Positions 18,415 to 21,837 of a DNA stretch of 64,000 nt are shown here, piece after piece; the stretch's first letter is position 1; each line of letters begins with the position of its first letter. This DNA comes from Desulfosudis oleivorans Hxd3. GTDB lineage: Bacteria > Desulfobacterota > Desulfobacteria > Desulfobacterales > Desulfosudaceae. The notes below the pieces were generated by a model, which saw only the letters and a program-made list of their open reading frames with translations, searched no databases and had not been told where the DNA came from. Location of the stretch: contig NC_009943.1 in NCBI RefSeq assembly GCF_000018405.1, positions 1,553,001 to 1,617,000 of the forward strand, in the 5' to 3' direction. The translations under genes and the position numbers were made by a program.

Positions 18415-18563
18415 ACACGCCTCCGTAACGGTTTTTGGTTTTAGACACTATTGTCGGCTTTTCACCCCGGGTGAAAAGTGATGGGGGGGATATTACCACA
18501 GAAAGCAGAAACAGTGAACATGCGGAATGTGTTGATCTGAAACAGAGGGGTTAGCAAGGAAGT

Positions 18564-18576
18564 GGGGGGGGGGGGG
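18564..18576. repeat. 13-base poly-G tract
   Basis: Thirteen consecutive G in an intergenic region, about 42 bases after the selenolipoprotein gene and 150 bases upstream of the START-protein gene. Such a tract can slip in length during replication. Confidence 0.8.
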
Positions 18577-18581
18577 AGAAA

Positions 18582-18610
18582 CGGCCCGGTCTGCTATTCA
18601 GACCGGGCCG
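18582..18610 (-). terminator. Hairpin after the selenolipoprotein gene
   Basis: CGGCCCGGTCTG and CAGACCGGGCCG form a perfect 12-bp stem with a five-base loop, starting eight bases after the stop codon. There is no T-run, so it may protect the 3' end more than terminate. Confidence 0.55.
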
Positions 18611-18617
18611 GGTGACG

Positions 18618-19277
18618 CTATTGAACAGCCGGTTCTATGGGTATGCCCGGTTCGGCCGCGGCCTTAAGCACAATATTCAGGTCGGCCTGCTTTCCGGCCC
18701 TGCCGTTCCGGTGGGCAAAGACCACCTGGTTGCCCGGGCCCATCACAAAAAGGCCGCCCTGCTGCCAGAGATCGCCGGCCTTGCGTCCCTGGTGAAAGCC
18801 CCGGAACATTGTCTTAAATCCCCGTCCGATGGAGCACGGGCCAAGGGTTCGCCAGAACCCGCGTTTCAGTCTAAAGGCGTTGTAAGCGGCAAGGGACGGA
18901 TCCAGGTACACTTCTCCCTCAAATTTGAACTTTTCGATAAACACGCGGGCCTGCTCCGGTGTGCCACTGCCCACCGCCACCAGTGCCACACCCATCTCAT
19001 CGAGCTGTTTCTTCACGTTCATAAGGTCAGCAGCCTGCTGACGGGCAAACATTCACCCAAAGTGGCGCAAAAACACCAGCACCACCCGGCGGGTTTCCCA
19101 GATCGTTTCAAGGGCCACGGCCTGGCCCTCCATGTTCTGTACTGTCAGGGTGGACATTGTGCCACCCAGCTCACTGTAGTCCATCGTTTCCATCGACTTT
19201 TCCCCTGTTGTTGAACATCCTGTTAAAAGAAAACCGCACATCATCAGAACCAAAAAACTTTTTTTGATCATGGCCAT
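18618..19277 (-). CDS. Peroxiredoxin-like (PRXL2/AhpC-TSA) selenolipoprotein, UGA read as Sec75
   Basis: A 219-residue lipoprotein if the TGA at 19053-19055 is read as selenocysteine; upstream and downstream parts share one frame. The signal peptide with lipobox LTGC (residues ~5-22) anchors it to a membrane. Around the Sec it reads VFLRHFGUMFARQQAADL, which aligns with the GCxxC redox site of PRXL2 (FAM213) thioredoxin-fold proteins: the first Cys is Sec and the second is Ala. Then come DEMGVALVAVGSGTP, EVYLDPSLAAY and LWQQGGLFVMGPG. It would reduce peroxides or thiols outside the cytoplasm. AGGAGTCAA precedes ATG 19277. It is the last gene of a unit with a CpxRA-like two-component system. 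Confidence 0.85.
19026..19055 (-). promoter_or_regulatory. SECIS-like element for the peroxiredoxin-like selenoprotein
   Basis: Ten bases after the TGA comes a perfect 7-bp stem GTCAGCA/TGCTGAC with loop GGC. The loop begins 17 bases after the TGA and starts with G. The geometry is the same as in the GrdB-like gene. Confidence 0.75.
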
Positions 19278-19299
19278 TTGACTCCTTTCTGTTTGATTT

Positions 19300-21094: not shown

Positions 21095-21799
21095 TTACTC
21101 GGCCCACATATACCCTTTCCCCCATACGGTTTTGATATAGCGGGGCGCGGAGGGGTCATCCTCCAGCTTTTTTCGAATGCGGCTGATATGCACGTCAATG
21201 GAGCGGTCAAAGGTTTCAAAGTCACGCCCGCTGGCAAGGTCCAGCAGACGGTCCCGGGTGAGCGGGGTCCCTTTATGTGAAATAAGGGCGTTGAGGATAT
21301 CGGTCTCCACCCCTGTCATGGCAATCTCCCTGCCGGACTTGCGCAATACGCGGCCGGCAAAGTCGATCTCAACCGAGCCGAACACCATGGCGCAGGCGGA
21401 GGGGGATGATACCGGGGCCGCTTCCGCGCTTGCCGTTGCCCGCCGCAACACCGCTTTTATTCGGGCCAGCAGTTCCCGGGGGTTGAAGGGCTTGTGCATA
21501 TAATCATCCGCCCCCAGCTCAAGGCCGATAATGCGATCGGCCTGGTCCTCTCTGGCGGTGAGCATGATCACCGGCACCTGGGAGATCGCCCGGATTTTTT
21601 TCAGTGTCTCAAATCCGTCGATGTCCGGCAGCATGATATCAAGCACAACAATATCGCAGGGCGTACCGGCGGCCACGCTTTTTATTCCATCCAGGCCCGT
21701 CAGCGCGAACGCCACCTCCAGATGGCTTTCCTCAAAATAGTCGCGCAGCAGCGCCTGAAGGGCTTTGTCATCATCAATAATAAGAATGCGGTGGGTCAT
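21095..21799 (-). CDS. OmpR-family response regulator
   Basis: A 234-residue protein. The N-terminal receiver has the acidic pair in LIIDDD, the phospho-Asp in VVLDIMLPDIDG, MLTA and the switch Lys in MHKPFNP. The C-terminal winged helix (residues ~135-230) has HISRIRKKLEDDP and VWGKGYMWAE. The start at 21799 is chosen because it starts the receiver fold; the frame stays open upstream into the preceding gene. Located 38 bases after glgP and upstream of its kinase. Confidence 0.9.
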   Translation of the reverse strand: MTHRILIIDDDKALQALLRDYFEESHLEVAFALTGLDGIKSVAAGTPCDIVVLDIMLPDIDGFETLKKIRAISQVPVIMLTAREDQADRIIGLELGADDYMHKPFNPRELLARIKAVLRRATASAEAAPVSSPSACAMVFGSVEIDFAGRVLRKSGREIAMTGVETDILNALISHKGTPLTRDRLLDLASGRDFETFDRSIDVHISRIRKKLEDDPSAPRYIKTVWGKGYMWAE

Positions 21800-21837
21800 G
21801 TGGCGTCTCTTTGAAATGTCCGGCCCGGCAGCTCGGG

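Follow-up and report, generated by a model that had tools for sequence, protein, structure and literature searches.

A predicted lipoprotein gene of Desulfosudis oleivorans Hxd3 contains a UGA codon in its reading frame. The question that this locus raises is whether the UGA ends the protein or is read as selenocysteine (Sec) and, in the latter case, what kind of protein is made and where in the cell it would act. The gene lies on the minus strand of the window, by which we mean the whole stretch of 64,000 nucleotides that was analysed. Read through the UGA, it runs from an ATG at 19277-19275 to a TAG at 18620-18618 and encodes 219 residues, beginning with MAMIKKSFLVLMMCGFLLTG followed by Cys and later reading FLRHFG-U75-MFA78-RQQAADL. 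An ordinary ORF scan instead returns two pieces, a 100-aa ORF that stops at the UGA and a 144-aa ORF that begins directly after it. Counted from the proper start the first of these has 74 residues, the length to which the first-pass annotation had expected a gene caller to truncate the protein.

18618..19277, minus strand: predicted selenoprotein gene with an AhpC-TSA_2 (PRXL2-type) domain, 219 codons plus TAG
19053..19055, minus strand: UGA codon 75, predicted to be decoded as Sec
19026..19042, minus strand: candidate SECIS hairpin with a 7-bp stem, a GGC loop and 17 nt from UGA to loop

Decoding of the in-frame UGA

The UGA at codon 75 had been proposed earlier without a strand, and is present at 19055-19053 on the minus strand. 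A single-sequence search of genome contigs gave no match, and homologues were recovered with an alignment as query; this alignment carries Cys at the Sec position and hence would favour Cys forms. Within the order, 82 of 389 genomes were matched at E<=1e-25, and one in-frame TGA is found in each of the 85 matches listed. The same holds for all eight homologues of the phylum sample, for all those read from a scan of named genomes, and for nearly every homologue in a set of 58 relatives. In the homologues that were inspected residue by residue, the TGA codon takes the place of the first Cys of the CxxC motif. Aligned to human PRXL2B (PGF synthase), the window protein has U75 at the first Cys, and codon 78 encodes the Ala that replaces the second Cys, both as the first-pass annotation had read them. 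That annotation asked whether homologues carry Cys or Sec at this place, and noted that a genuine stop would speak against Sec; what they carry is a conserved TGA at the equivalent codon. Relative to one homologue (L010), substitutions after the UGA fall mainly at third codon positions (22/14/55 at positions 1/2/3), and the third-position bias of the differences is similar before and after it.

The perfect 7-bp stem described at the outset, GTCAGCA-GGC-TGCTGAC, is found at 19042-19026. The published model of the bacterial SECIS has a loop of 3-9 nt with G in the first two loop positions, a stem of 4-16 bp, an MFE <= -7.5 and a spacing of 16-37 nt (PMC13188914), and the hairpin agrees with it throughout (GGC loop, 7 bp, 17 nt, and -11.7 kcal/mol computed for a 41-nt piece). 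An Rfam search gave no real match. By folding energy alone the hairpin stands out only mildly (z about -1.9), which is weak evidence for a SECIS; the case for Sec rests on comparative evidence. Among 38 distinct sequences, 96.1% of the stem cells are paired. Pair 15/29 is GC in 27 and UA in 11, with no exceptions, and 15 cells are changed on both sides, as compared with 4.5 in shuffles (0/500); these shuffle counts are not probabilities, as the sequences are related and not independent. Shifted versions of the stem score much worse in the covariation test. The pairing is also visible in the codons: an Arg or Ser codon with third base T occurs only with Asp or Glu (GAN) five codons downstream, and codons with third base G (CGG, AGG, AAG, CAG) only with Ala (GCN) at that distance. 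In L081, a CAG to CGG change is accompanied by a compensating GCT to GCC.

A true stop at the UGA, which would leave a pseudogene or a split gene with a lipopeptide of 74 aa and perhaps a second product of 144 aa, is very improbable. An ATG immediately after the UGA does open the 144-aa ORF, but this ATG is a Leu, Ile or Val codon in other members, and a protein begun there would be without the first part of the Trx fold. In the 85 matches listed, which come from many genera, the stop is invariably TGA and its codon position never changes; the stem behind it covaries, and reading frame and protein sequence are conserved before as well as after the UGA.

The genome is a single contig of 3,944,167 bp. 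A lack of SelB or SelC had been named as an argument against Sec, and this does not apply, since selA, selB, selC and selD are all present (genome search: selA 597 bits, selB 374 bits, selD 374 bits, tRNA-Sec 75 bits). There are two clearly different tRNA-Sec genes (L001 and L002, G000:C1:2690342-2690435 and 3561047-3561140), both with anticodon TCA, and ORFs adjoining the one at 3561047-3561140 resemble, by eye, ferredoxin-thioredoxin reductase and nitroreductase. The selD gene (L092, G000:C1:3893407-3894333) has an in-frame TGA of its own. The genome also encodes a second selenoprotein of the same superfamily (L025, G000:C1:3038587-3039069, plus strand), a UxxC protein (HLGULPC) without a signal peptide. 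Table 1 of PMC2702500 lists 0 selenocysteine proteins for Desulfococcus oleovorans Hxd3, whereas we find the complete Sec machinery, and an in-frame TGA in at least three genes (the window gene, its paralogue and selD). Such a gene is invisible to ordinary gene calling. On the comparative evidence, we consider it highly probable that UGA 75 is decoded as Sec in a PRXL2-type lipoprotein.

Active site and proposed chemistry

The PRXL2-type identity claimed for the protein is borne out by profile match, fold and active-site alignment, which agree. The protein matches PF13911 (AhpC-TSA_2) with E=2.4e-29 and 102.5 bits, above the gathering cut-off of 27, and its best PDB match is human prostamide/PGF synthase (1e-17). 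An AlphaFold model built from 43 sequences has a mean pLDDT of 85.6; VIA-align places the modelled fold closest to human PGFS (9usa; Z 20.5, rmsd 2.4, 160 residues), while peroxiredoxins, those of PrxQ type included, reach Z 15-17. U75 and A78 are aligned with the two active-site Cys of human PGFS (mutant C44S/C47S).

The active site departs from the known motifs. The CxxC redox pair of PRXL2 is replaced by U75-M-F-A78, with Sec first and Ala second; the typical peroxiredoxin motif PxxxTxxC/U is missing, the sequence being FLRHFGU with H72 at the Thr position; and the protein falls outside SelL, having UxxA instead of UxxU and scoring below the cut-off of NF040769. It belongs to a clade of about 36 UxF[A/S/C] proteins (tree support 98/97) that stands beside UxxC proteins. 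Of 43 members, 31 have Ala or Ser at position 78. In these 31, Sec75 is the sole invariant redox residue and no other Cys is conserved, most of them having no Cys in the domain at all, and R71, H72 and G74 are invariant. One MAG has two paralogues, a lipoprotein with UMFA and a signal-less form with UMFC (L071 and L037/L062). No Cys orthologue of the clade was found within the limits of our search patterns and samples. Together with the loss of the second Cys, this suggests that the clade depends on Sec. Such a Sec-only clade would be a clear example from nature in which to study what selenium can do and sulfur cannot.

We propose that the protein is a one-Sec reductase of oxidised envelope substrates, a reading to which we give about an even chance. 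SelB and the SECIS hairpin would decode UGA 75, and translation from the upstream start would give a lipoprotein anchored via Cys21 and facing the periplasm. The selenolate of Sec75, in a pocket formed by R71-H72-x-G-U75, would attack the O-O or S-S bond of an oxidised substrate, probably hydrophobic and near the membrane. The resulting selenenic acid or selenosulfide would then be recharged by an external thiol, which we propose because no resolving Cys is present. Both substrate and reductant are assigned by inference. Peroxidase chemistry is a guess, because the canonical PxxxTxxC is missing. According to work cited in PMC3473315, PGFS reduces an endoperoxide; this reaction may serve as a model for the chemistry, and is no proof of it.

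It is less likely, though conceivable, that the protein is a thiol-disulfide oxidoreductase or a SelL-like diselenide protein. SelL_rel_redox (NF040769) is its best NCBIfam match, ResA thiol-disulfide oxidoreductases are among the next Foldseek matches below PGFS, and the sister clade is UxxC. However, the NF040769 score of 116.8 bits is under the family cut-off of 120, the motif is neither UxxU nor UxxC, with Ala or Ser prevailing at position 78, and there is no further conserved Cys with which an internal bond could form.

Predicted envelope anchor, candidate internal start and gene neighbourhood

19215..19277, minus strand: predicted lipoprotein signal peptide, MAMIKKSFLVLMMCGFLLTG followed by C21, with a lipobox common to relatives
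19275..19287, minus strand: lipoprotein start, AAGGAG plus the upstream ATG
19191..19206, minus strand: candidate internal start, AGGGGA plus the in-frame ATG of codon 29, moderate here and strong for most relatives

The lipobox noted in the first-pass annotation is readily located: LLTG precedes C21, with L-T-G-C at codons 18-21 and Cys21 encoded by TGT at 19217-19215, and the window protein is predicted to be lipid-anchored to the envelope. By inspection of sequences, a lipobox or a motif resembling one is present in 11 members and a plain signal peptide in two; the remaining members have neither. The two with a plain signal peptide (L065 and L075, from Syntrophaceae and Smithella) lack both lipobox and internal start. 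Further lipoprotein members were sought in three families and none was found, and the tree leaves the number of origins of the lipoprotein form unsettled. As judged from these signals, the clade is a mixture of lipoprotein, secreted and cytosolic forms. The cytosolic forms make up more than half of it, which implies that an envelope location is not essential to activity. The earlier view of a Sec-containing PRXL2 protein outside the cytoplasm holds as far as the lipobox goes; that the protein is exclusively extracytoplasmic does not follow, because lipoprotein genes of this clade have an internal start matching cytosolic homologues.

Such an in-frame internal start is present in 10 of the 11 lipoprotein genes (nine ATG, one GTG), 42-46 codons before Sec, where it coincides with the start position of the cytosolic homologues and follows Shine-Dalgarno-like purines. 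At the internal site, the Shine-Dalgarno-like energy is at most -5.8 in ten of the 11 genes; in eight the duplex energies are -8.8 to -12.2, often beating the upstream start. Lipoprotein control sets (10 and 5) were too small and were replaced by a coding-sequence background and a synonymous-codon test. Across a background of 113,358 codons of the Desulfosudis oleivorans Hxd3 genome, the chance of such an ATG in a 5-codon window is 0.6% at <= -8 and 2.4% at <= -5.8. With amino acids fixed, synonymous codons favour the internal site (combined P about 0.001). The site of the window gene has an energy of -6.5 and is unremarkable alone (synonymous-codon P=0.47); a further in-frame ATG, codon 32, lies at 19184-19182. 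The site is weak in L033 and absent in L037.

The main alternative to a dual start is that these are strictly envelope proteins and that the internal start is left over from a cytosolic ancestor and yields no second isoform. We judge this to be an evenly balanced matter. Such sites could persist through descent from a cytosolic gene, the codon choice of the window gene is as its amino acids predict, and the site is absent from L037 and from the two signal-peptide forms, L065 and L075; against this, 10 of the 11 lipoprotein genes retain the start in an otherwise variable linker, well above the 2.4% background, and synonymous codons favour it. That tandem starts of one gene direct a one-Sec enzyme to the cytoplasm as well as to the envelope we advance tentatively, and for the clade. 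The internal start would then yield a cytosolic isoform in the family and possibly also from the window gene. We regard dual start as a good hypothesis for the family and as a candidate, with moderate evidence, in the window gene. If true, it would be a simple route by which one enzyme is sent to two compartments.

Upstream of the selenoprotein gene, three further genes follow one another tightly spaced on the same strand, in the order response regulator, histidine kinase, 75-aa small protein, selenoprotein.

21095..21805, minus strand: OmpR-type response regulator, 65% identical to the neighbour of L059
19524..20942, minus strand: sensor histidine kinase (HAMP-HisKA-HATPase), 55% identical to the neighbour of L059
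19300..19527, minus strand: 75-aa small membrane-protein ORF, 22 nt upstream of the selenoprotein gene

The gene order is identical in Desulfatitalea alkaliphila (L059), where the first three genes are 65, 55 and 51% identical to those of the window and the small protein again adjoins the selenoprotein gene (L059/L038). The kinase, regulator and small protein recur only in Desulfatitalea, so that no neighbourhood is conserved across the clade; near L063 there is a related kinase fragment on the opposite strand. We infer that the selenoprotein may be regulated by the adjacent two-component system. The small protein was rejected as a fixed partner, as it occurs elsewhere in other genomes, and the downstream START-domain gene (18414-17398) is outside the conserved set. 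A PADLOC search gave no match.

Two further features were seen around these genes. Four loci (L061, L068, L072 and L075) have a related ORF resembling an ECF-type sigma factor close to the selenoprotein gene, and in L061 and L075 the two are adjacent. Immediately behind the stop codon of the window gene, at 18560-18611, a run of about 12 G lies by a perfect inverted repeat (GGCCCGGTCTG...CAGACCGGGCC), which is terminator-like without a T run.

Comparison with known systems

Sec in place of the first Cys is a feature of SelU. Animal SelU belongs to this superfamily, SelU3 being PGF synthase (PMC3473315). The animal SelU/PRXL2A-C proteins, of which PRXL2B is prostamide/PGF synthase, resemble the window protein in fold (Z 20.5) and in the position of the redox residue, but in PRXL2 the second Cys is retained, PRXL2 is no bacterial lipoprotein, and in eukaryotes the SECIS has another position in the mRNA. 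SelL (NF040769) is a distant homologue at 116.8 bits, from which the window protein differs by its score below the cut-off of 120 and the lack of UxxU. One-Cys peroxiredoxins (AhpE, LsfA) share a thioredoxin-like peroxiredoxin fold, a single catalytic residue and the recharging from outside that is proposed here, but have PxxxTxxC where LRHFGU stands here, and a Z of about 15 as compared with 20.5 for PGFS.

The closest known case is a peroxiredoxin-like (AhpC/TSA) selenoprotein of pfam13911/cd02970, tabulated in PMC9312934 and PMC13188914 as a UxxS prediction for the Delta 1 symbiont of Olavius algarvensis. It has the AhpC-TSA_2 domain, Sec at the same place of CxxC, a bacterial SECIS and a Desulfobacterota-type host; the window clade differs in being mostly UxxA and in including a lipid-anchored form. 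One of our homologues, L065, is UMFS and falls within the clade of the window gene, and the Olavius UxxS family is probably the same clade. The first-pass annotation had called a lipid-anchored Sec-containing PRXL2-type protein outside the cytoplasm unusual; the selenoprotein stands, whereas Sec is not new to the superfamily, given animal SelU and the predicted Olavius protein. Neither review (PMC9312934, PMC13188914) mentions a lipoprotein form or an internal start and, as far as they show, what is new here is that most members are UxxA, that some are predicted to be lipid-anchored, that the pattern is Sec-only and that an internal start is conserved.
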